From contig NZ_JAFFIX010000003.1 in the NCBI RefSeq assembly GCF_016916835.1, positions 124,001 to 188,000 on the forward strand: DNA of 64,000 bases, written 5' to 3'. The position numbers and the translations under genes were made by a program. Origin of the DNA: Actinacidiphila bryophytorum (GTDB lineage: Bacteria; Actinomycetota; Actinomycetes; Streptomycetales; Streptomycetaceae). How positions within the stretch are numbered: the first letter of the stretch is position 1; each line of letters opens with the position of its first letter. The notes under the pieces were generated by a model, which was not told where the DNA came from, made no database searches, and worked only from the letters and a program-made list of their open reading frames with translations. This document shows, piece by piece, positions 43,583-54,794 of this stretch.

Positions 43583-43610
43583 TGTCACATACCCGGAGGT
43601 ACACGCGTGT
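43583..43610 (+). promoter_or_regulatory. ECF-type promoter of the femX-like gene
   Basis: TGTCACA (43583-43589), exactly 16 bp, then CGTGT (43606-43610). The same two boxes with the same spacing precede the sigma-factor gene at 52116. The expected start point near 43617 leaves a leader of about 44 nt containing GGAGGA. Confidence 0.65.
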
Positions 43611-43660
43611 TACATGTGAGCGGGCCGCCCCGGACCGCCGCATACGCGGAGGACGACGCC

Positions 43661-44875
43661 TTGACGATGAGCACCCACCATCGCCCGCAGGCCCCGGCGG
43701 GACAGCGTAACGGCCCGCTGCTCCTCCAGCCGGTGACGGGCGGCGAGCACGCCGCCTTCCTGCGGCGCCCGGGCCCGTACACCGCGAGCTTCCTGCAGAC
43801 ACCGGCGTGGGCCAGGGTCAAGACGGGCTGGCGCTCGGAGACCCTGGGCTGGTTCGACGCGGACCAGCGCATGGTCGGCTCGGCGCTGGTCCTCTACCGC
43901 CGTCCTCCCGGCGTACGCCGCTTCTTCGCGTACCTGCCGGAAGGCCCCGGCGTGGACTGGGCGGACCCGCAACTGGAGCGCTGGCTCGACCCGTTGCTCG
44001 CGCACCTGGCGGGCACCGGCGCCTTCGCCGTACGGATGGGGCCGCCCCTGGCGTACCGCAGGTGGTCGGCACGGACGCTGAAGGACGCGGCGGGGCCGGG
44101 GCGCAGGGTCGGGGACGTGCTGCCCGACCTGGTGGAGCCGCTGGGCACCGCGGTCGCCGACCGGCTGCGCGAGTCGGGCTGGCGGCGCTGCGGGGAGGAC
44201 GGGCAGGGCGTGGGGGTACCTCCCAGGCGGATCTCCGGGGGAGCGCAGCCCCGGCTGCTGTTCGAGGTGCCGCTGGCCGGGCGCGGCCTGGACGACCTGT
44301 GGACGGGCCTGAACCAGGAGTGGCGCCGCAACATCAAGAAGGCCGCGAAGTCCGGTGTGTGGACCGGCGTCGAGGGGCCGCAGACGCTGCCGGCCTTCCA
44401 CGACCTGCTGCGGATCACCGAGCGCCGCGACGGCTTCGACCTGGGCCGCGGCCTGGACTACTACCAGCGGCAGTATGCCGAGCTGAACGCGGAGCGGCCC
44501 CGCAGCATGCGCCTGTACACCGCCCGCCACCAGGGCGAGCTGCTGGCCGCGCACACCCTGCTGACCGCGCCGGACGGCAACCGCGTCTGGTACCAGACGG
44601 GCGCGTCCGCCGACCACCGCCGCGAGGTGCGGCCGAGCAACGCCCTGCAGTGGCGGATGCTGTGCGACGCCCTGCTGGCGGGCGCCGCGGTCTACGACAT
44701 GCGCGGGGTCCCCGACGACCTGGACCCCGCGGCCCGCGCGCACGGGCTGCTGCGCTGGAAGCTCGGCACGGGCGGCGAGGCGGTGGAGACCGTGGGGGAG
44801 TGGGAACTGCCGCTCCAGGGCGCGGTGAACAAGGCCCTGCACCGGGCGATGCACACGTATCTGACCCGCCGCTGA
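43661..44875 (+). CDS. FemX/FemAB-like peptidoglycan branch aminoacyltransferase
   Basis: GNAT-fold enzyme that adds an amino acid from aminoacyl-tRNA to the peptide side chain of lipid II (Gly in streptomycetes). It is about 404 aa. TTG 43661 is best placed after GGAGGA (43648-43653); ATG 43667 is the alternative. Family motifs: SFLQTPAWARVKTGWRSE, VYRRPPGVRRFFAYLPEGP-like region, LNQEWRRNIKKAAKSG and a C-terminal DMRGVPDDLDP...LLRWKLGTGG. Around residues 184-197 the protein carries an in-frame insertion (GVGVPPRRISGG) encoded by a dispersed repeat. The promoter matches that of the SigE-family sigma factor. Confidence 0.87.
   Translation: MTMSTHHRPQAPAGQRNGPLLLQPVTGGEHAAFLRRPGPYTASFLQTPAWARVKTGWRSETLGWFDADQRMVGSALVLYRRPPGVRRFFAYLPEGPGVDWADPQLERWLDPLLAHLAGTGAFAVRMGPPLAYRRWSARTLKDAAGPGRRVGDVLPDLVEPLGTAVADRLRESGWRRCGEDGQGVGVPPRRISGGAQPRLLFEVPLAGRGLDDLWTGLNQEWRRNIKKAAKSGVWTGVEGPQTLPAFHDLLRITERRDGFDLGRGLDYYQRQYAELNAERPRSMRLYTARHQGELLAAHTLLTAPDGNRVWYQTGASADHRREVRPSNALQWRMLCDALLAGAAVYDMRGVPDDLDPAARAHGLLRWKLGTGGEAVETVGEWELPLQGAVNKALHRAMHTYLTRR
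44210..44243. repeat. Palindromic dispersed repeat inside the femX-like gene
   Basis: GGGGGTACCTCCC-type unit followed by AGGCGGATCT and CCGGGGGAG. It resembles the intergenic unit at 43384-43414 and is read through in frame as about 11 residues. Confidence 0.6.
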
Positions 44876-45007
44876 GCCCGCAGGACCGGTCGGAAGGCAG
44901 CCGGGCGCCGAGCCCGCGCAAGGGCGGCCGGGGGCCGGCGCGGCAGGAATGCGGCGTGCGCTGAGCCCGCGGGACCGGTCGGAAGGCAGCCGGGCGCCGA
45001 GCCCGCG
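44871..45007. repeat. Tandem duplication at the femX 3' end
   Basis: Two 48-bp copies with a single mismatch (44871-44918 and 44960-45007), 89 nt apart. The first contains the femX stop codon; the second is non-coding. Nothing else is visible between femX and the MFS gene. Confidence 0.75.
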
Positions 45008-45025
45008 GGAGCGCGCCGGTTGCGC

Positions 45026-46351
45026 TCAGGCCGCCAGTGCGGCCGGCACCGCGCGGGTGCGGCGCACCATCCGCAGGACCAGGACCACGCTCAGCGTGCC
45101 GCCGACCCCGGAGCCGGCGATGACGGCGTAGGGCGGCGCCCATTCGGCGAGGGCGCCGCCGACGGTGATGCCCAGGCCCTGCAGGGTCATCAGTCCCGCG
45201 CCGAGCAGCGACATGGCCTGCCCGCGCATCTGGTCGGGCACGTCGTCGACGAACCAGCGGTCCATGCCCAGCGCGTAGGCCGCGCACAGCCCGGTGAGCA
45301 CCAGCAGCACCAGGGCCAGCGGCAGCGACGGGTCGAGGGCGAAGAGGACCAGCGGCAGCAGCGAGACCGCGGCGAGCGGCAGCACGATACGGTCCCTGGC
45401 CGCGGGCGACAGCAGTGTCCCGGCCAGCACCTCGCTGACGGCGGTGCCCGCGGGCATCGCGGCGAGGAAGAGGCCGAAGCCGACCGTGCCGATCCCGGCG
45501 GCCTTGGCGAAGGGCGCCGCGAGGCCCTCGGCGACGATGAAGAACATCGGCGGCACCCACCACATCAGCAGCAGCGCCCTGATCCGCGGGTCGGCCATCA
45601 GCCGCCCGGCCGAGGCGATGGACTCGCGCATCAGCCGCCCGCTGCCGGTGGCGCGGGCCGGGCGGTCCGCGGTGCCCAGGCGCAGCAGCAGCGCGGACCC
45701 GGCGAAGGTGCACGCGGTCAGCAGCAGCGCGGAGCGCGGGGTGAGCCACACCAGGACCAGGCCGCCGAGGCCGAAGCCGGCGATCTGCGAGCCCTGGGCC
45801 ACGATCCGCACCAGGGAGCGGCCGAGCACGTAGCGCTCGCCCTCCAGGATGTCGGCCAGGCTCGCCGCCCTGGTGCCGGTGAACAGCGGGGCGATCAGTG
45901 AGACGGCGACCCGCAGCACGAACAGCAGCACCACGGGCGCCCCGGGTATCGCCATGGCGGCCACGCAGCCGCAGGAGAGCACGTCGCAGGACACCAGGAC
46001 CCGGCGGGAGGGGTAGCGGTCGGCGATGCCGGACAGCAGCAGGCCGCTGAGCGCGTAGGGCAGGTAGGTCAGTGCGAAGACCAGGGCTGACAGGACGGCG
46101 GAGCCGGTCTCGGCGAAGATCAGGACGGCGAGCGCGACCTCGGCGAGGACGCCGCCGAGCAGGGACAGCACGTGCGCGGCGAAGATCGGCCGGAATTCGC
46201 GGACGGAGAACACCGCGCCGTAACCGATGGTGCTTCCGCTGTCGGCGCCACCGGGGGTGGTGGTGGCGTTGTCCGCGTCCTTCACGTGCTCTTCTCCGGC
46301 CGGCGAAGCGTGGTTGACACCGCGTGGAGGGTGCTCGCTGTCCGTTGTCAT
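45026..46351 (-). CDS. MFS transporter
   Basis: 441-aa major facilitator with about 12 transmembrane helices and a cytosolic, polar N-terminus of about 40 residues. It has the loop 2-3 motif GIADRYPSRRVL (variant of GxxxDRxGRR) and loop 8-9 phrase MDRWFVDDVPDQMRGQAMSL, as in DHA3-type macrolide/drug exporters. The ATG at 46351 is 69 nt from the divergent ArsR-type gene, which probably represses it. Substrate unknown. Confidence 0.88.
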   Translation of the reverse strand: MTTDSEHPPRGVNHASPAGEEHVKDADNATTTPGGADSGSTIGYGAVFSVREFRPIFAAHVLSLLGGVLAEVALAVLIFAETGSAVLSALVFALTYLPYALSGLLLSGIADRYPSRRVLVSCDVLSCGCVAAMAIPGAPVVLLFVLRVAVSLIAPLFTGTRAASLADILEGERYVLGRSLVRIVAQGSQIAGFGLGGLVLVWLTPRSALLLTACTFAGSALLLRLGTADRPARATGSGRLMRESIASAGRLMADPRIRALLLMWWVPPMFFIVAEGLAAPFAKAAGIGTVGFGLFLAAMPAGTAVSEVLAGTLLSPAARDRIVLPLAAVSLLPLVLFALDPSLPLALVLLVLTGLCAAYALGMDRWFVDDVPDQMRGQAMSLLGAGLMTLQGLGITVGGALAEWAPPYAVIAGSGVGGTLSVVLVLRMVRRTRAVPAALAA

Positions 46352-46420
46352 GTCATCACCCTGGAGCCACAGGGACCCCACGTGTAGTCTTTCGCGTACA
46401 GCCGAATCTTGGGGGTCATG

Positions 46421-47407
46421 ATGTCGCTTCGCATGCGTTTTGCGGCTGAGGACCTGCTGAGGTGCCGTTTTGCCATATCCCCGCTGCGTGAGGCGCAGGG
46501 CGCGGTGCGCACCCTGTCCCGCCCCGACCGGCACGGCCACCACCTGCCGTGGCTGCGCCAGGTCAGGGCCGCGGCGGCCGGTCTCGACCTCGCCCCGCTG
46601 TGGCTGCTGGCCCCCGAGCACGGCTACGGCCCCGACTTTCTGCAGCCCATCCCCGAGGTGCCGCTGGCCGGTCTCGACGAGGAGCTGGACGTCGTCAGGT
46701 CCACCCCGCCGGAGGTCGCCAGGCTGCAGATCGCGGTTGCCCTCTCCCAGACCCCCGGCGCCGCCGACACCCGCAGGGGCCGCGCCATGCTGGCCGACCC
46801 CGCCGGGACCGTACGGCAGCTGGCGGGGCTGTACGAGCACGTGTGGGCCGCGCTGCTGGCCCCGCACTGGCCGCGGCTGCGCGCGGTCCTCGAAGCCGAC
46901 GTCGCCTACCACGCCCGGCGGCTCGCCGACGGCGGCATGCAGCGGCTGTTCACCGGGCTGCATCCGAAACTGCACTGGTCGGAGGGGGCGCTGACCACCG
47001 CGGGCGCCATGGGGCCGCTGCCCGAGCCCGGCGGGCGCGGCCTGGTGCTGGTGCCCAGCGTCTTCTTCTGGCCCGAGGCGGGCAGCGCCTTCGACCCGCC
47101 CTGGCAGCCGCTGGTGATCTACCCGGCGCGCGGCATCGGCGGCCTGTGGGCGCCTGGCGGCCCGACCGCGTCCGCGACCCTGGTGCGGCTGCTGGGCGCC
47201 AACCGGGCCGCGATCCTCAGCGGCCTCGACGCCCCCAGCACCACCACGGCACTGGCGCACCGGCATGTGATGGCGATGTCGTCGGTCTCCGCACACCTGG
47301 CGGTGCTGCGGGACGCAGGGTTGCTGACGTCCCGCCGCTACGGGCACCAGGTGCTCTACGAGCGCACCCCGCTGGGCATCGCCCTGGCCACCGGGGGGCC
47401 GCTGTGA
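46421..47407 (+). CDS. ArsR-type winged-helix regulator with long N-terminal domain
   Basis: 328 aa. Unlike small ArsR repressors, the winged helix is at the C-terminus (about 255-325: NRAAILSGLDAPSTTTALAHRHVMAMSSVSAHLAVLRDAGLLTSRRYGHQVLYERTPLG). The first 250 residues form the DUF5937-like N-terminal domain common in actinobacterial members. ATG 46421 lies 5 nt after GGGGG; ATG 46418 and TTG 46409 are alternatives. Divergent from the MFS gene; no metal-binding Cys motif is seen, so it may sense a small molecule. Confidence 0.87.
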   Translation: MSLRMRFAAEDLLRCRFAISPLREAQGAVRTLSRPDRHGHHLPWLRQVRAAAAGLDLAPLWLLAPEHGYGPDFLQPIPEVPLAGLDEELDVVRSTPPEVARLQIAVALSQTPGAADTRRGRAMLADPAGTVRQLAGLYEHVWAALLAPHWPRLRAVLEADVAYHARRLADGGMQRLFTGLHPKLHWSEGALTTAGAMGPLPEPGGRGLVLVPSVFFWPEAGSAFDPPWQPLVIYPARGIGGLWAPGGPTASATLVRLLGANRAAILSGLDAPSTTTALAHRHVMAMSSVSAHLAVLRDAGLLTSRRYGHQVLYERTPLGIALATGGPL

Positions 47408-47522
47408 GGCCCGCGGGCGGCGGCGCCCGCAGGACCGCCGCGGTCCGGTTGTAGTCCCTGCCCGCTCCGCACGTGACGCAACCGTGGCCCCTGTGCTACG
47501 GCAGGATGTCCGAAAACGGCCG

Positions 47523-47816
47523 TCAACCGGCCAGATACCGCTCCACGGTGGCCACCTTGGAGTCCAGGCCGTCCGTGACGCCGGGCCGCAGATCCGCCTT
47601 GAGGACCAGCGACACCCGCGGTGCCCGCTCCTCGACCGCGGCGACCGCCCGCTTGACCACGTCCATCACCTCGTCCCACTCGCCCTCGACCGAGGTGAAC
47701 ATCGCGTCCGTGCGGTTCGGCAGCCCGGACTCGCGCACCACCCGCACCGCGTCGGCGACGTATTCGCCGACGTCCTCGCCGACGCCCAGCGGTGTGACGG
47801 AGAAGGCGACGATCAT
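47523..47816 (-). CDS. MTH1187/YkoF-type thiamine-binding protein
   Basis: 97-aa protein of the UPF0045/MTH1187 family (ferredoxin-like fold), whose members bind thiamine or related ligands. The N-terminus [32 protein letters not shown] and [22 protein letters not shown] are characteristic. The ATG at 47816 overlaps the stop of the DUF3817 gene by 4 nt (ATGA), so these two are translationally coupled. Confidence 0.88.
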
Positions 47817-48157
47817 GCGCCGACCGCCTGCTGCGCCTCGGCGCGGGCGGCCACGACCGCGTCCTCGCACTCGCGGGCGAGCGTGCGCTCGGCGAAGAAG
47901 CCGCCGGTCGGCAGGACCGACAGCACGAACAGCAGCGCCGCCCGGCCGAAGCCCCAGCGGGCGCGGTTCCAGGCCAGCGCCCACAGCACGACGTATCCGA
48001 CGAACAGCACGCCGTGCACCATGCCCATCACCGGCACCGCGTTGAAGTCGGTGGTGCGCTTGAGCACCGAGCAGACCAGCAGCAGCAGGAAGGAGACCGC
48101 CTCCGGGGCGGAGATCAGGCGCAGCCTGCGCAGAGCGCCGGCGGTCTTCAGGTCCAC
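47813..48157 (-). CDS. DUF3817 family membrane protein
   Basis: 114 aa from GTG 48157. About three transmembrane helices (roughly 17-34, 41-62 and 70-90), with the family pattern [35 protein letters not shown] and [12 protein letters not shown]. Function unknown. A paralog lies at 55485-55826. The strong Crp-like palindrome at 48236-48255 is about 80 nt upstream. Confidence 0.88.
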
Positions 48158-48235
48158 GGGAAAACCTCACTGTCGATGCTGCCGGCACTGTCGGCCGGGG
48201 GGCGGTGCCCGACCCCGGGCGGGCCGGGACCGGAT

Positions 48236-48255
48236 CTTGTGAACGCGATCACAAG
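48236..48255. promoter_or_regulatory. Near-consensus Crp-type operator
   Basis: Perfect palindrome CTTGTGA-N6-TCACAAG. The TGTGA-N6-TCACA core is the classical Crp layout. It is in the 217-nt divergent region, 79 nt from the DUF3817 start and 119 nt from the DUF2127 start. Confidence 0.65.
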
Positions 48256-48374
48256 GATGCGTCCATTATCACCGGCCCGTATCGATGACCTGCCCCGGGG
48301 GTAGGAAACCGTCCGGCGGGCGATAGCGTCCATGTCCACGACATCTGTACGTACTCAACGGGGACCGGGACACG

Positions 48375-49190
48375 ATGAGCATCGACTGGGACCGCAGGCA
48401 CTGCGCCCGCAAGGGCCACATCACCTACGCGCCCGACGAGCTGCGGCTGCGCAGCCGGCTGCACGCGAGCACCGCCGTCGGCGAGGTGTGGCGCTGCCTG
48501 CGCTGCGGCGACTTCGTGCTGGGCGACCCGCACGGCACCGGCCCCGCCGACCGGGCACCGCTGGTGCCGCGCGGCCGGGCGCTGCGCGACCTGTTCATCC
48601 TGCGCTTCCTCGCGGTCGAGCGGATCCTGCGCGGACTGCTGATCGTGGTCGCCGCCTGGGCAGTGTGGAAGTTCAGCAACTCGCAGGACGCGGTGCGCAA
48701 GCTCTTCGAGGACGACCTCACCGCCTTCAAGCCGGTCGCCGACCACTTCCACTACGACCTGGACCACTCACCGGTCGTGGACACCATCCGCAAGACCTTC
48801 GACTACAAGAAGTCCACCCTGCAGATCGTCGCCGCGGCCCTGCTCGGCTACGCGCTGATCGAGATCATCGAGGGCTTCGGGCTGTGGTGGGCCAAGCGCT
48901 GGGCCGAGTACCTGACGGTCGTCGCCACCGCCGCCTTCCTCCCCCTTGAGGTCTACGAACTGACCGAGAAGGTCAGCTACTTCAAGATCGGCACCCTCGC
49001 GCTCAACGTGCTGGCCGTCCTCTACATCCTGCTCGGCAAGCGGCTGTTCGGCCTGCGCGGCGGGCACAAGGCCTTCGAGGCCGAGCGGCGCAGCGCCTCG
49101 CTCCTGGAGGTCAAGGAGGCGGCGGGCGAGAACGGCGAACCGCTCGAACCGCTGCCGGTACGCCCCCGCACCGCCGCCGACAGCAGCTGA
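48375..49190 (+). CDS. DUF2127 family membrane protein with N-terminal Cys-pair motif
   Basis: 271 aa from ATG 48375. The N-terminal soluble part (1-75) has a CLRCGD motif (near residue 41) and an earlier His/Cys in RRHCARKGH, resembling a small zinc site. About four transmembrane helices follow (for example ILRGLLIVVAAWAVW, TLQIVAAALLGYALIEIIEGFGLWW, VVATAAFLPLEVYEL and LALNVLAVLYILLG), then a charged tail. Three AIM24 genes follow with 0 to 3 nt gaps or overlap, so this is the first gene of a four-gene operon. Confidence 0.82.
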   Translation: MSIDWDRRHCARKGHITYAPDELRLRSRLHASTAVGEVWRCLRCGDFVLGDPHGTGPADRAPLVPRGRALRDLFILRFLAVERILRGLLIVVAAWAVWKFSNSQDAVRKLFEDDLTAFKPVADHFHYDLDHSPVVDTIRKTFDYKKSTLQIVAAALLGYALIEIIEGFGLWWAKRWAEYLTVVATAAFLPLEVYELTEKVSYFKIGTLALNVLAVLYILLGKRLFGLRGGHKAFEAERRSASLLEVKEAAGENGEPLEPLPVRPRTAADSS

Positions 49191-49193
49191 GCC

Positions 49194-49832
49194 ATGGCGA
49201 CCTTCCGGCTGCAGGGCACCCGGGTGCTGGCCGTCGACCTGGCAGGCGACGCGGTCAAGGCCAAGAAGGGCGCCATGGTCGCCTACGACGGCGAGATGAC
49301 GTTCAAGAAGATGACCGGCGGCGGCGAGGGCCTGCGCGGCCTGGTCACCCGGCGGATCACCGGCGAGGCCATGGCGGTGATGGAGGTCAAGGGCCACGGC
49401 ACCTGCTGGTTCGCCGACCGGGCCACCGAGATCAACCTGGTCGGGCTCACCGGCGACAAGCTGCACGTCGAGGCGAGCAACCTGCTGGTCACCGAGCCCT
49501 CGCTGCGCACCGGCACCACCTTCACCGGGCTGCGCGGCGCCTCCCAGGGCAACGGCCTGTTCACCACCACCGTCGAGGGCACGGGCCAGGCCGCGATCAT
49601 GTCCGACGGCCCCGCCATCGTGCTGCGGGTGACCGCCGGCACCCCGCTGGTGGTCGACCCCGGCGCCTACGTCGCCCACACCGGCAACCTCCGCCAGCAG
49701 CTGCGCTCCTCGGTCGGCCTGCGCACCCTGATCGGCGAGGGCTCGGGCGAGAGCTTCCAGATCCACTTCGAGGGCGAGGGCCTCGTCTACGTCCAGCCCA
49801 GCGAGCGCAACACGGTCGGGGGGCAGATCTAG
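49194..49832 (+). CDS. AIM24 family protein, copy 1
   Basis: 212 aa. AIM24/TerD-adjacent beta-rich domain (trimeric barrel-like, DUF124) with the recurring pattern AKKGAMVAYDGEMTFKKM, GTCWFADRATEINLVGLTGDKLHVEASNLLV and GEGLVYVQPSE. ATG 49194 is 3 nt after the upstream stop. Eukaryotic AIM24 is mitochondrial; the bacterial role is unknown. Confidence 0.88.
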   Translation: MATFRLQGTRVLAVDLAGDAVKAKKGAMVAYDGEMTFKKMTGGGEGLRGLVTRRITGEAMAVMEVKGHGTCWFADRATEINLVGLTGDKLHVEASNLLVTEPSLRTGTTFTGLRGASQGNGLFTTTVEGTGQAAIMSDGPAIVLRVTAGTPLVVDPGAYVAHTGNLRQQLRSSVGLRTLIGEGSGESFQIHFEGEGLVYVQPSERNTVGGQI

Positions 49833-50483
49833 GTGGGCTTCACCCGTATCAACTCCAAGCTGGTGGAGGCGCGCATCGTGCCCGGACAGCGGATGTTCAG
49901 CCAGCGCGGCGCCATGCTCGCCTACCGCGGCGCCGTCACCTTCACCCCCAGCATCGTCGGCGGGCAGGGCGGGGTCATGTCGATGATCGGCCGCCGGGTC
50001 GCCAACGAAGCGACCCCGCTGATGACCGTCGAGGGGGACGGCCTGGTGATGTTCGGCCACGGCGGCCACCACATCCACACCGTGGACCTCAGCGGCGAGA
50101 CCCTCTACGTCGAGGCCGACCGGCTGCTCGCCTTCGACGGCTCACTGGCCCAGGGCACCATGTTCATGGGCTCGCAGGGCGGTGTGATGGGCGTGATACG
50201 CGGCCAGGTCACCGGGCAGGGGCTGTTCACCACCACCTTGCAGGGCAAGGGCTCGGTCGCCGTCATGGCGCACGGCGGCGTCTTCGAACTCCCCATCACC
50301 CCCGGCCGCCCCGTCCACGTCGATCCGCAGGCCTACGTCGCCCACCGCGGCGACGTCCGCAACAAGCTCGCCACCGCCGTCGGCTGGCGCGAGATGGTCG
50401 GCCGCGGCTCCGGCGAGGCCTTCCAACTCGAACTCAGCGGCCAGGGCACGGTCTACGTACAGGCCTCGGAGGAGAAGCTGTGA
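49833..50483 (+). CDS. AIM24 family protein, copy 2
   Basis: 216 aa from GTG 49833, which directly follows the copy 1 stop. It has the same repeats: SQRGAMLAYRGAVTFTPS, GLVMFGHGGHHIHTVDLSGETLYVEADRLLAF and GQGTVYVQASEEKL. Its His-rich turn GHGGHHIH is not seen in the other copies. Confidence 0.88.
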   Translation: MGFTRINSKLVEARIVPGQRMFSQRGAMLAYRGAVTFTPSIVGGQGGVMSMIGRRVANEATPLMTVEGDGLVMFGHGGHHIHTVDLSGETLYVEADRLLAFDGSLAQGTMFMGSQGGVMGVIRGQVTGQGLFTTTLQGKGSVAVMAHGGVFELPITPGRPVHVDPQAYVAHRGDVRNKLATAVGWREMVGRGSGEAFQLELSGQGTVYVQASEEKL

Positions 50484-51196
50484 CCCACCCCGAAGGCCCG
50501 GTCGTCCACGACCCGTACACGCTGCCCGCAAACGACAACGTCAACCCGTACGCCTTCTGCGTCGACCTTGACGGCCAGTGGTTCCTGCAGAAGGGGAAGA
50601 TGATCGCCTACTACGGGCAGGTCGACTTCCACGCCATCGGCCACGGCCCGCTCGACCACCTCGTCGCCGCCAACTTCCACTCCCCGCTGCACGCCAGCGC
50701 CTGGGTCGTCGCCCAGGGCCGCGGCAAGATGCTGCTCGCCGACCGGGCCTACGACATCAACTCCTACGACCTGGACGACGGCAACCTCACCATCCGCTCC
50801 GGCAACCTGCTGGCATTCCAGCCGGGCCTGGCGCTCAAACAGTCGATCATCCCGGGCTTCCTCACCCTGATCGGCACGGGGAAGTTCGTCGCCGCCTCCA
50901 ACGGGGCCGTGCACTTCGTCGAGCCGCCGATCCGCGTCGACCCGCAGGCCCTCGTCGGCTGGGCCGACTGCCCCAGCCCCTGCCACCACTACGACCACGC
51001 CTACATGCGCGGCATCCTCGGCGGCATCAGGGCGCTCACCGGCATCGGCGGAGCCTCGGGTGAGGAGCACCAGTTCGAGTTCACCGGCGCGGGCCAGGTG
51101 CTGCTGCAGTCCACCGAGGAGCTGATGGCCGCGGCCGACACCGGCGGCGTCCCCGGCAGCGCCGGCCCCGGGGTGCCCGGCGCGGGCCTCGGCTGA
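50480..51196 (+). CDS. AIM24 family protein, copy 3 (divergent)
   Basis: 238 aa from GTG 50480, overlapping the copy 2 stop by 4 nt (GTGA). It is more divergent: a Pro/Asn-rich N-terminus, QKGKMIAYYGQVDF, GKMLLADRAYDINSYDLDDGNLTIRSGNLLAF, and a Cys/His cluster CPSPCHHYDH near residue 155 that could bind metal. The C-terminal 20 residues are Gly/Pro rich. Confidence 0.85.
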   Translation: MTHPEGPVVHDPYTLPANDNVNPYAFCVDLDGQWFLQKGKMIAYYGQVDFHAIGHGPLDHLVAANFHSPLHASAWVVAQGRGKMLLADRAYDINSYDLDDGNLTIRSGNLLAFQPGLALKQSIIPGFLTLIGTGKFVAASNGAVHFVEPPIRVDPQALVGWADCPSPCHHYDHAYMRGILGGIRALTGIGGASGEEHQFEFTGAGQVLLQSTEELMAAADTGGVPGSAGPGVPGAGLG

Positions 51197-51239
51197 CCCG
51201 CTGCGTACGGTGACCGCACCGCTACCCTGGCGATCATCC

Positions 51240-51264
51240 GGAATTCAACGGACGGTAGAATTCC
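51240..51264. promoter_or_regulatory. MarR operator overlapping the -10 box
   Basis: GGAATTC-N11-GAATTCC (51240-51246 with 51258-51264). The TAGAAT -10 box (51256-51261) lies in the right arm, with 7 nt to the ATG at 51269, so the mRNA is probably leaderless and autorepressed. Confidence 0.65.
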
Positions 51265-51268
51265 CGGT

Positions 51269-51751
51269 ATGACCACCGAGACCGCCGAAAGCGCCGCCAC
51301 CTGGCTCACCGAGGAGGAGCAGCGCGCCTGGCGCATTCACCTCGACGTCAGCCGGCTGCTCATGTACCAGCTGGAGCGCGACCTGCAGCCTTTCGGCCTG
51401 ACCAACAACGACTACGAGATCCTCGTCAACCTCTCGGAGGCCGAGGACCACCGGCTGCGGATGAGCGACCTGGCCAAGTCGACCCTGCAGTCCAAGAGCC
51501 GGCTCTCGCACCAGATCACCCGCATGGAAGCCGCGGGGCTCGTCCGCCGGGAGAACTGCGAGTCCGACCGGCGCGGGCTGTACGCGGTGCTCACCGAGCA
51601 GGGCTGGGACACGATGCGCCAGGTCGCCCCGCGCCATGTCGCCTCGGTGCGCGAGCACTTCATCGACCTCATCCCGGCCGCGGACCTGGCGGCCTACCGC
51701 CAGGCCCTCACGCCCGTCGCCACCCACCTCCGCGCCAACCGCGCCCGCTGA
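51269..51751 (+). CDS. MarR family transcriptional regulator
   Basis: 160 aa. Winged-helix core LTNNDYEILVNLSEAEDHRLRMSDLAKSTLQSKSRLSHQITRMEAAGLVRRENCESDRRGLYAVLTEQG (about 45-115). There is no Shine-Dalgarno; a TAGAAT box and palindrome sit immediately upstream. A single Cys lies in the wing (RENCESDRRG), the position where oxidation-sensing MarR proteins sometimes carry one, but sensing is unproven. It follows the AIM24 operon, but the palindrome suggests its own promoter. Confidence 0.9.
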   Translation: MTTETAESAATWLTEEEQRAWRIHLDVSRLLMYQLERDLQPFGLTNNDYEILVNLSEAEDHRLRMSDLAKSTLQSKSRLSHQITRMEAAGLVRRENCESDRRGLYAVLTEQGWDTMRQVAPRHVASVREHFIDLIPAADLAAYRQALTPVATHLRANRAR

Positions 51752-52065
51752 CCCGGGGGTACCCCCGGTCTGCCCCTCCTCCCCCCGGTGGGGGCTGTGC
51801 GCGCAGTTCCCCGCGCCCCTTCGGTGATTGCCCCTTGCGGTGGGCTTGCACCTTCGAGTGCGTGGGTGGCTGGGCGCGCAGTTCCCCGCGCCCCTCGAAA
51901 ACGTTCACCCTCGCAGGCAGAGGGCGCCGCCTGAAAAACGCTCACCCTCTGCGGAAGAGGGCACCCCCCAGGGGCGCGGAAAACTGCGCGGCCAGCCCGA
52001 TGCCGGGCGGCAGACGCGCGACGGCTGCAAGTGGCAGCCCGGAGGGCGCACCCTCGGAAGACACC
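51752..52065. repeat. Gene-free region with dispersed repeats
   Basis: About 314 nt without a gene. It contains two copies of a GCGCGCAGTTCCCCGCGCCCC-like unit in the same orientation (near 51799-51819 and 51874-51894), a 33-bp unit (51930-51962) identical to 43301-43333, and a related, degenerate copy just before it (near 51895-51925). Confidence 0.7.
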
Positions 52066-52093
52066 TGTCACAAAAGGCCGCGCCCCCGCGTGT
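52066..52093 (+). promoter_or_regulatory. ECF-type promoter of the sigma-factor gene
   Basis: TGTCACA (52066-52072), 16 bp, CGTGT (52089-52093), identical in boxes and spacing to 43583-43610. A transcript starting near 52100 would still include GGAGG (52102-52106) before ATG 52116. Suggests autoregulation. Confidence 0.65.
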
Positions 52094-52115
52094 AAGAAGC
52101 GGGAGGGCACCGTAC

Positions 52116-52676
52116 ATGAACCCGGAACCCGCGGAGCGCACCGCGGACTTCGACGAGTTTTACGCCGCCACGGCCAAACGCATGGTCGCCGTGGTCTTCG
52201 CCGTGACCGGCGACCTGGCGGAGGCGGAGGACGCCGTCCAGGAGGCATACGCGCGTGCCTGGGTGCGCTGGCCGGCGCTGACCGCCGAGGGCGACCCGAC
52301 CCCGTGGGTCAGGACGGTCGCGCTGCGACTGGCCGTGAGCACCTGGCGCAAGGCGCGCAACCGCATGCGCGCCCACTTCCGGCACGGGCCGCCCCCGGAC
52401 GCACCGGACCTGGCACCGGACCGCGTCGCGCTGGTCGCGGCGCTGCGGGGGCTGGGCGACGACCAGCGCACCGCCGTCGTGATGCACCATCTGCTCGACC
52501 TGCCGGTCGAGGAGATCGCCCGGGAGACCGGGGTGTCGCCCGCCGCGGTCAGGACCCGGCTGAGCCGCGGCCGCAAGGCGCTCGGCGCCCGGCTCAGGGA
52601 CGAACCCGAGCCCGCAGACCCCGAACCTGCCGCCTGCGCGCGGCGACTCACCGAAGAGGTGCCTTTCCATGGCTGA
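52116..52676 (+). CDS. SigE-family ECF RNA polymerase sigma factor
   Basis: 186 aa. Region 2 is FDEFYAATAKRMVAVVFAVTGDLAEAEDAVQEAYARAWVRW (about 12-52) and region 4 is DDQRTAVVMHHLLDLPVEEIARETGVSPAAVRTRLSRGRKALGARL (about 113-160). No C-terminal SnoaL extension, so it is not a classical ECF41 protein although the promoter resembles that type. It overlaps the downstream membrane-protein gene by 8 nt, a layout typical of sigma/anti-sigma pairs. Confidence 0.92.
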   Translation: MNPEPAERTADFDEFYAATAKRMVAVVFAVTGDLAEAEDAVQEAYARAWVRWPALTAEGDPTPWVRTVALRLAVSTWRKARNRMRAHFRHGPPPDAPDLAPDRVALVAALRGLGDDQRTAVVMHHLLDLPVEEIARETGVSPAAVRTRLSRGRKALGARLRDEPEPADPEPAACARRLTEEVPFHG

Positions 52677-53511
52677 CGAGCTGGACGACCGGCTCAGGGA
52701 CCTGGCCCGCGACACGGAACCCCTCGTCGTCCTCGCAGGACCGCAGGCCGTCCGTGCCCGCGGCGAGCGCCGCAGGGCGCGCCGCAGGGCCGCGGCCGCG
52801 GGAACTGCGGCGGTGCTCGCGCTCACCGTCGGCGGCTGGCAGCTGCTGCCCCGGCTGGAAGGCGGCGGCACCGGTACGGCGGCCCCGGCGGGCAGCGTCT
52901 CCGCGCTGCCGCCGGAGCCGCGGCCCAGCGCCCTGCAGGCGCAGCTGGCGGCGGCACTGCTGCCGGACACCGCGATGCCGTACGGCGTGAAGTGGCAGTG
53001 GACGGGCGTGACGCCGGAGAAGGCGTCGAAGTACCAGCCGCCCTGCCAGGCGGACCCGGTGGCACCACCGGACGCGGAGGCGATCCGTACGTACACCGCC
53101 CAGCGCACCTCCGCGGTCGCCACCTACCGGGTGCTCGCCTACGCCGACCCCGCCCTCGCCGCGGAGCAGACCCTCCTGCTGCGCCAGCTGATGCAGGTGC
53201 ACTGCGGGATGTCGCAGCCCGCGGGCACGCCCCCGACCGCCCCCGACGCTCCCTCCGCCGACGGCACATCCGGCTTCTGGGGGGCATCGAAGTCCTACCC
53301 CGGGGTAACGGCATGGGTGGAGTGCCGGGGCCGCTTTGTCGCCGTCCTGCTGGTGAACGCGCCGGGGGACCCGCAGACCCGCTACGAAGGCACCGGCGTC
53401 GACAAGTGCATCGCCCTGTCGCTGCACCGGCTGGCGCAGGGCTCGACCGCCGCCGACACGGAAGGCCCGCCCACCGCGTCCGGCGGCACCACCTTCTCCT
53501 ACTCCTGCTGA
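52669..53511 (+). CDS. Single-pass membrane protein, probable sigma-factor partner
   Basis: 280 aa from ATG 52669. The cytosolic N-terminus (MADELDDRLRDLARDTEPLV, about 1-40) is charged and short, a helix (about 43-58, AAAAGTAAVLALTVGGWQLL) spans the membrane, and the extracellular part carries four Cys (QPPCQAD, VHCGMSQ, VECRGRF, VDKCIAL) likely to form two disulfides. No zinc anti-sigma (HxxxCxxC) motif is visible. Overlap with the sigma gene suggests an anti-sigma or sensor role, but this is inferred from position. Confidence 0.75.
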   Translation: MADELDDRLRDLARDTEPLVVLAGPQAVRARGERRRARRRAAAAGTAAVLALTVGGWQLLPRLEGGGTGTAAPAGSVSALPPEPRPSALQAQLAAALLPDTAMPYGVKWQWTGVTPEKASKYQPPCQADPVAPPDAEAIRTYTAQRTSAVATYRVLAYADPALAAEQTLLLRQLMQVHCGMSQPAGTPPTAPDAPSADGTSGFWGASKSYPGVTAWVECRGRFVAVLLVNAPGDPQTRYEGTGVDKCIALSLHRLAQGSTAADTEGPPTASGGTTFSYSC

Positions 53512-53528: not shown

Positions 53529-54794
53529 GTGCACCTCATACGCAGTTCCCGCCGTCCCCGCCCCCGGGCGCTCGCCCTGCCCGCCGTCCTGCTCGCGCTC
53601 GTGCTCGGCGCCACCGCGTGCGGCGGCCACGACAGCGCGGGCGGCGACTCCCCGCCCGGCAAGGACCGCGCGGGCGGCACCGCGACGACCGCGGCAGGCC
53701 CGCACGTCACGGTGACCCCGGCCGCGGGCAAGGACGGTGTCGCCCCCGGCGCCACGGTCAAGGTCACCGTGGCCGACGGCACCCTCGGCGCCGTGACCGT
53801 CACCCCCAAGGGCAAGGCGTCGGACGGCGTCGACCCCGTACCGGTGACCGGCACCCTCGACCCGGCGGCCGGCACCTGGACCTCGGACCGCACCATGACG
53901 CCCGGCACCTCCTACACCGTCACCGTCACCGCGGCCGGCGCGTCGGGAGGGAAGTCCACGACCACCAGCACCTTCACGACCGCAGCCGCGGCCGAGGTCA
54001 ACGGCGTCACCCCGACCCCGCTCAACAACGCCGTCGTCGGCGTCGGCCTGCCGGTCTCGCTGGCCTTCGACGTCCCCGTCACCGACCGGGCCGCCGTCGA
54101 GAAGGCGCTCACGCTGACCACCACCCCCGCGGTCAAGGGCAGTTGGGGCTGGCTCACCGACCCGCTGACCGGGGTCCAGCGGGTCGACTGGCGCCCCGAC
54201 GCCTACTGGCCGACCGGCACCCAGGTCACGCTGACGGCGAAGCTGAGCGGTATCGACACCGGCGGCGGGCGCTTCCTGCGCCGCGACATCCACGACACCT
54301 TCCGCATCGGCACCGCCCGCATCTCGTACGCCGACCTGGCCGCGCACACCCTGCGCGTCACCGAGAACGGCCGCACCGTGAAGACCTTCAAGATCTCCGC
54401 GGGCAGCGCCGACTTCCCCACCTGGAACGGGAAGATGGTCGTGATGACCAAGCAGTCCAAGGTCCGCATGACGTCGGCCTCGGTCGGCATCGCCACCGAC
54501 AAGGACGCCGCCGACTTCTACGACGAGGACGTCAACAACGCGGTGCGCATCACCTCCTCGGGCACTTTCGTGCACGCGGCACCCTGGAACGACCGGTGGA
54601 TGGGCAAGCAGAACAAGAGCCACGGCTGCATCGGGATGAGCGACCCCGACGCGAAGTGGTTCTTCGACCGGGCCACCCGCGGCGACCTGGTCATCGCCTC
54701 CGGGTCGAGCCGGGCCGTGGTCGACAAGGGCAACGGGTACGGCGACTGGAACCTCGGCGCCGACCAGTGGCACGCGCTGAGCGCTCTCGCCTGA
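53529..54794 (+). CDS. L,D-transpeptidase lipoprotein with Ig-like domains
   Basis: 421 aa from GTG 53529. A lipoprotein signal ends at Cys31 (LGATAC, a slightly weak lipobox). Two Ig-like domains (about 60-155 and 155-265, as in mycobacterial LdtMt2) precede the YkuD domain with catalytic Cys367 in SHGC (364-367) and the upstream His in FVHAAPWN. It makes 3-3 cross-links in peptidoglycan or attaches proteins. It starts 17 nt after the membrane partner gene, so it shares the sigma-factor operon. Confidence 0.92.
   Translation: MHLIRSSRRPRPRALALPAVLLALVLGATACGGHDSAGGDSPPGKDRAGGTATTAAGPHVTVTPAAGKDGVAPGATVKVTVADGTLGAVTVTPKGKASDGVDPVPVTGTLDPAAGTWTSDRTMTPGTSYTVTVTAAGASGGKSTTTSTFTTAAAAEVNGVTPTPLNNAVVGVGLPVSLAFDVPVTDRAAVEKALTLTTTPAVKGSWGWLTDPLTGVQRVDWRPDAYWPTGTQVTLTAKLSGIDTGGGRFLRRDIHDTFRIGTARISYADLAAHTLRVTENGRTVKTFKISAGSADFPTWNGKMVVMTKQSKVRMTSASVGIATDKDAADFYDEDVNNAVRITSSGTFVHAAPWNDRWMGKQNKSHGCIGMSDPDAKWFFDRATRGDLVIASGSSRAVVDKGNGYGDWNLGADQWHALSALA

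Follow-up and report, generated by a model that had tools for sequence, protein, structure and literature searches.

In a stretch of 64,000 nucleotides from Actinacidiphila bryophytorum (contig NZ_JAFFIX010000003.1, positions 124,001 to 188,000; the whole stretch is referred to as the window), a gene for a SigE-family extracytoplasmic function (ECF) sigma factor and a gene for an accessory FemX enzyme are preceded by putative promoters with identical boxes. Based on comparison of the sequence across relatives, it is likely that this sigma factor and these two promoters form the regulatory core of a two-promoter, self-activating ECF regulon. The sites and genes concerned are the following.

43583-43610, forward strand: putative ECF-type promoter of femX (-35 box TGTCACA at 43583-43589, 16-nt spacer, -10 box CGTGT at 43606-43610)
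43667-44875, forward strand: accessory FemX, a FemAB-family aminoacyl transferase of 402 aa (PF02388, 1.2e-30)
52066-52093, forward strand: putative ECF-type promoter of the sigma operon (-35 box TGTCACA at 52066-52072, 16-nt spacer, -10 box CGTGT at 52089-52093)
52116-52676, forward strand: SigE-family ECF sigma factor, 186 aa (TIGR02983; PF04542, PF08281)
52669-53511, forward strand: membrane partner of 280 aa, a candidate anti-sigma factor, its gene overlapping the sigma gene by 8 nt
53529-54794, forward strand: L,D-transpeptidase lipoprotein with Big_10 and YkuD domains (PF17964, PF03734), in the same operon, 17 nt past the membrane-partner gene

Both promoter sites lie exactly where an earlier note on this DNA had placed them, with identical boxes and equal 16-nt spacing. 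The femX site at 43583-43610 reads TGTCACATACCCGGAGGTACACGCGTGT and the sigma site at 52066-52093 reads TGTCACAAAAGGCCGCGCCCCCGCGTGT. Transcription is predicted to start at ~43615-43619 for femX and at ~52097-52101 for the sigma operon, leaving the operon a leader of ~15-20 nt. It should be mentioned that an alternative TTG start of femX at 43661 has better spacing to the ribosome site. In dinucleotide shuffles, TGTCACA-N16-CGTGT is expected 0.01 times per 64 kb by chance, and two sites occurred in 0 of 100 shuffles. Genome-wide scans were made as pattern searches with the reversed pattern as control. Across the whole genome (8,050,835 bases in 96 contigs) the pattern has exactly two matches, both on the forward strand, with none on the opposite strand and none for the reversed control. 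The earlier statement that no third intergenic copy exists is therefore true genome-wide, since only these two sites match in 8.05 Mb.

Orthologs were gathered from named genomes, 35 genomes of the genus and 26 more distant genomes. The upstream comparison of orthologous sigma genes, proposed in the earlier note, found the motif [N]GT[C/A]AC-N17-CGTG before 23 of 26 sigma genes (two of these being remnants, in the genomes G031 and G009) and before 19 of 21 accessory femX genes, with constant spacing in every sigma and femX region that carries it. Markov resampling of these upstream regions puts the chance rate at ~0.3% per region. The -10 element is CGTG in all 42 promoters. In a per-column comparison, the sigma and femX sets alike show no variation at GT, AC and CGTG but do vary in their spacers, and GT..AC and CGTG are the most conserved columns of the sigma promoter; in four more distant sigma genes TGTAAC or GGTAAC replaces TGTCAC. 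Given this conservation at both genes, the matching boxes are a real promoter pair.

None of seven sigma paralogs at ~50% identity has the motif upstream. Of nine housekeeping-type femX genes, eight lack it as well, and one is preceded, at a distance of 261 nt, by a match of the CGTC type. The sigma gene keeps its own motif where femX is absent (G021, G029, L007, L008, L010 and L011). In albogriseolus and roseicoloratus the motif is missing at both sigma and femX, and coelicoflavus has it before femX but not before the sigma gene; what these three share is a sigma gene placed immediately behind the murJ coding sequence.

Searches for further members support a small regulon. A looser pattern, TGTCAC-N16-S-CGTG, gave 30 matches in five sigma-bearing genomes, of which 10 are the sigma and femX sites, and the other 20 are close to the 21 matches of the reversed control. 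A stricter pattern in 61 genomes gave 39 matches, 18 at sigma or femX, against 17 for the control. Because the leftover matches equal the control count, the detectable regulon consists of two promoters; no third promoter with the same -35 box and spacing stands above the control in either the 5-genome or the 61-genome search, although weaker variants could exist. Two candidates for a third member were rejected. The site TGTCACACGG...GGCGTGT, present in five clade-B genomes (see below), is intergenic but aims into the 3' end of a gene on the opposite strand, with no gene downstream. The site TGTCACCCGTGGGGG...CGTGT, present in four genomes with three copies examined, lies within a coding-like frame (GC3, the GC content of third codon positions, ~0.91). 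Separately, a 27-mer, TGTCACGGTGCGGGCATACGGCCCGTG, is identical in G000 (L091, C2:199044) and G012 (C54:36210), ~50 nt upstream of a chaplin-like gene. It may be another ECF promoter; as a third member of this regulon it has no counterpart in G006, G008 or G003 at the stringency used.

From these results a circuit can be proposed. The SigE-family sigma factor, with RNA polymerase, would read TGTCAC[A/C]-N16-CGTG promoters, its targets being its own operon (sigma factor, membrane partner and L,D-transpeptidase) and the accessory femX. The membrane partner would most likely keep the sigma factor inactive at the membrane through a short conserved cytosolic segment, while a PknH-like outer domain would sense a cell-envelope cue. 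Once released, the sigma factor would amplify itself and induce two enzymes, one LdtMt2-like and forming 3-3 cross-links, the other a Fem enzyme attaching a branch amino acid to lipid II. By its linkage to femX, a MurJ paralog is also counted in the module, without having such a promoter. Direct transcription of both promoters by this sigma factor is what we infer, as are the signal and the chemical nature of what the Fem enzyme makes. The earlier suggestion of a compact cell-wall regulon, in which the sigma factor activates both its own operon and femX, thus gains support from motif conservation, fixed spacing, absence of the motif at paralogs and lack of a third member.

The assignment of the membrane partner as an anti-sigma factor is one that we favor by a modest degree. 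The protein has a conserved cytosolic N-terminus of ~40 residues, one predicted transmembrane helix and an outer domain. In most orthologs its gene runs in the same direction as the sigma gene and either overlaps it or lies directly next to it. In an alignment the cytosolic segment DDRLRDLARDTEPLVVLAG...RRRGERRRARRR is kept even in distant orthologs, also where the outer domain diverges, and it is the candidate sigma-binding part. Pfam gave no match for the protein of the window and weak PknH_C matches for its orthologs. In an AlphaFold2 model built from 20 sequences (pLDDT 79, pTM 0.66), the outer domain is preceded by a short helix at the N-terminus and a long one in the membrane. The best fold match in the Protein Data Bank is the PknH sensor domain 4esq, with probability 0.99, an E-value of 1.7e-3 and TM-scores of 0.25 and 0.33. 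Owing to the low TM-scores and this E-value, kinship of the outer domain with the PknH sensor domain is probable rather than firm. The partner resembles PknH in the predicted fold of this domain and differs in having no kinase.

Several observations weigh against the proposed circuit. No anti-sigma domain was found in the membrane partner by Pfam or NCBIfam, and the 4esq match, with its low TM-scores, covers the outer domain only. Sigma factors of the ECF41 type in the same genome use an identical -35 box. The relatives G001 and G013 carry a femX-murJ-L,D-transpeptidase set without sigma factor or motif, with femX and murJ in tandem. Finally, both promoters persist in G031 and G009, where most of the sigma gene is gone along with the N-terminal half of the partner.

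The first of these points bears on how the sigma factor is controlled. It may drive both promoters and yet be regulated through its own transcription, as SigE is by CseBC, the membrane protein then being a target or another kind of sensor. We regard this as possible though rather unlikely, and it is compatible with the regulatory core. The lack of a recognizable anti-sigma domain and the small size of the cytosolic part (only ~40 residues) argue for it, and Streptomyces coelicolor SigE and SigQ, of the ECF39 group, are regulated transcriptionally (PMC8999054). There is a likeness to SigE in that TIGR02983 is named for it and L,D-transpeptidases are among its targets (PMC6767563). However, SigE promoters are of the type AAC...TC, with many targets under CseBC two-component control (PMC6767563), whereas the present module has two promoters and an accessory FemX. 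Its GTCAC/CGTG promoters do not match the AAC/TC type of ECF39 (SigE, SigQ) and set it apart by promoter type. No two-component genes were noticed beside the module, though no systematic search for them was made. The overlap or close contact of the two genes in most orthologs and the preservation of the cytosolic segment despite outer divergence also speak against transcriptional control. Autoregulation of a sigma factor from its own promoter is, moreover, typical of anti-sigma systems.

The second rival concerns the identity of the reader, and the comparison with ECF41 is central to it. The ECF41 promoter is TGTCACA-N16-CGTC, its -35 box being held specific to that group, and the known ECF41 targets are COE (carboxymuconolactone decarboxylase, oxidoreductase, epimerase) genes (PMC3426412). 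The protein of the window scores 152.7 bits against the TIGR02983 cut-off of 141.55, which places it in the SigE family, and SigJ (5xe7) is the closest of the solved structures. Its domains are sigma2 and sigma4 only, and it stops ~25 residues past sigma4. Neither the SnoaL-like C-terminal extension of ECF41 nor the YVGxWLP linker was found in it; the earlier remark that it lacks the extension is confirmed by the 186-aa protein and the domain search. No COE gene stands beside it, the neighbors being the membrane protein and the L,D-transpeptidase. The likeness to ECF41 promoters that had been pointed out holds for the -35 box TGTCACA and the 16-nt spacer; it fails at the -10 element, which is CGTG and not CGTC. 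The module thus shares the -35 box, the spacer, autoregulation and a tiny regulon with ECF41 systems (Ecf41 of B. licheniformis, R. sphaeroides and SigJ of M. tuberculosis; PMC3426412), and it differs in lacking the extension, linker and COE neighbor, in its -10 element and in having a membrane partner and cell-wall targets.

At least 8 sigma factors encoded in the same genome exceed the cut-off of the SigJ family, and further ones score under it. All six ECF41-type promoters found in it (on C5, C19, C20, two on C1, and L112) have CGTC as the -10 element. It is noted that the loci L087, L088 and L112 carry TGTCAC[A/G]-N16-CGTCC; L088 and L112 precede NAD-dependent epimerase-like genes, and L087 lies upstream of an ECF41 sigma gene at C1:625961. 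We infer that the module and the ECF41 systems share a -35 box and would be held apart in the cell by a single -10 base. The sigma4 recognition helix is AAVRTRLSR in the module sigma factor and most of its orthologs, xAVRQL-like in several ECF41 proteins and GTVKxxL in the paralogs without the motif. The tracking of promoter sets by these helices is suggestive only.

That both promoters are mainly read by an ECF41-type, SigJ-like sigma factor, with the local SigE-family factor having other targets or none, we weigh as an improbable alternative. The -35 box is the ECF41 signature (PMC3426412), and the genome does not lack candidates, with at least 8 sigma factors above the SigJ cut-off. The remnants in G031 and G009 point the same way. 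These are sister species (third-position difference ~0.12) whose promoters persist without the local sigma factor, with box changes between the two at 0 of 24 positions and spacer changes at 8 of 32 (Fisher P = 0.008). Because the boxes remain intact, either the loss is recent or another sigma factor, perhaps of ECF41 type, may read these promoters. We do not accept the loss as proof of another reader, since the two deletions (L173, L174; femX, murJ and the L,D-transpeptidase gene intact) differ in their endpoints and are probably independent and perhaps recent, and since promoter relics can outlive their partners. In G021, which has lost femX and murJ, a femX-type promoter with its upstream element persists with no gene behind it (L180:7347, minus strand). 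G009 has an intact promoter and an in-frame fusion that joins 31 aa from the N-terminus of the sigma factor to the membrane protein's sensor domain. Against an ECF41-type reader, the fourth -10 base is G in 42 of 42 sigma and femX promoters and C in 6 of 6 ECF41-type promoters, the known ECF41 targets are COE genes (PMC3426412), and the motif travels with this sigma clade, preceding the sigma gene even without femX. A third explanation, in which the two sites match by chance or belong to a repeated element other than a promoter, can practically be dismissed: looser versions of the pattern do arise several times per genome by chance, but ~0 full matches are expected, and the ortholog alignment already contradicts it with in-register conservation at orthologous genes of ~20 species whose spacers and flanks diverge.

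The arrangement of the genes supports a common module around the two-promoter core. Divergent from femX is a further gene, together with an element that abuts the femX promoter.

41581 to ~43197, reverse strand: paralog of MurJ, the lipid II flippase (PF03023, 8e-91, 305 bits, above the cut-off), divergent from femX, with a tentative start codon
43571-43582, forward strand: 12-nt element CGGGAAAGTCTC (CGG-GAANNTCTC), abutting the femX -35 box on its 5' side

No copy of the motif was found for the MurJ paralog itself. Based on column information from 19 femX promoters, the element CGGGAAAGTCTC/CGG-GAANNTCTC is nearly invariant, and sigma promoters do not have it; it may serve as an operator or belong to the promoter of the divergent murJ. 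In nearly all relatives murJ is divergent from the accessory femX. In clade A (the window and its neighbors) the divergent murJ/femX pair lies ~7-10 kb from the sigma operon, and in the present genome the two promoters are 8.5 kb apart. Between femX and the sigma operon, the window has three consecutive related open reading frames of similar size at 49194-51196, AIM24-like by eye. Clade B has the uninterrupted order femX<-P murJ-> P-sigma-mem-ldt (mem, membrane partner; ldt, L,D-transpeptidase) in G003, G004, G011, G016, G032 and the named relative H39-S7, with ldt not detected in G032 within the stretch read. In G032 (L266, C119:60001-78000) the module adjoins a van cluster with a VanK-like gene and vanX, the sole such neighborhood noticed. 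The divergent MurJ, the contiguous five-gene order and the sigma-less relatives with both promoters are points on which the earlier note was silent. Among the 35 genus genomes, 15 have both sigma gene and accessory femX, 6 femX only, 2 sigma only and 12 neither (Fisher P = 0.0016, uncorrected for kinship). Since G001 and G013 have the femX-murJ-L,D-transpeptidase set without sigma factor and motif, the enzyme module appears from its distribution to be older or wider than the present sigma switch.

The enzymes themselves are related to known cell-wall proteins. The L,D-transpeptidase has an intact SHGC catalytic motif in its YkuD domain and matches LdtMt2 of Mycobacterium tuberculosis over its full length (6e-61). 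The two share the layout of an Ig-like plus YkuD lipoprotein with SHGC, and the present enzyme differs in being encoded in a sigma-factor operon. The accessory FemX scores 54.9, far below the NCBIfam FemX equivalog cut-off of 500. The genome also carries a housekeeping femX (C88) and two further full MurJ-type genes. In a maximum-likelihood tree the accessory FemX forms its own supported clade, separate both from the housekeeping FemX proteins and from the VanK proteins that van clusters encode, which rules out that it is VanK and makes it, by phylogeny, a third Fem lineage beside these two. VanK is the precedent for a second Fem enzyme that is required once lipid II changes (PMC4790382). Like VanK of the Streptomyces van cluster (PMC4790382), the accessory FemX would be a second, inducible Fem enzyme alongside the housekeeping one; unlike VanK, it falls in a different clade, at ~50% identity, and is not within a vanHAX cluster in the window.

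Taken together, MurJ, FemX, the sigma factor, the PknH-like sensor and the L,D-transpeptidase could represent an inducible side route of peptidoglycan synthesis with dedicated enzymes. We put this forward tentatively and consider it unlikely to hold as a whole. By analogy with VanK and D-Ala-D-Lac, the accessory Fem enzyme would branch an altered lipid II that housekeeping FemX refuses, the accessory flippase would export it, and the L,D-transpeptidase would cross-link the exported precursor 3-3. Control would lie with an ECF sigma factor whose promoters combine the -35 box of ECF41 with a -10 element that differs by one base.

No publication was found on a sigma factor with this gene set, in a literature search largely without subscription journals. 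An ECF sigma factor with envelope targets is of a known kind; the gene composition and the promoter combination appear to be new. For most ECF sigma factors of Streptomyces no targets have been assigned, and here a complete two-promoter circuit is proposed in which both promoters lead to peptidoglycan enzymes. The presence of the ECF41 -35 box in promoters of a sigma factor outside ECF41, one -10 base apart within one genome, provides a case for the study of promoter orthogonality. With the accessory FemX as a third Fem lineage, whether it acts on D-Ala-D-Ala, D-Lac or truncated stems matters for understanding the remodeling of actinomycete walls under stress.

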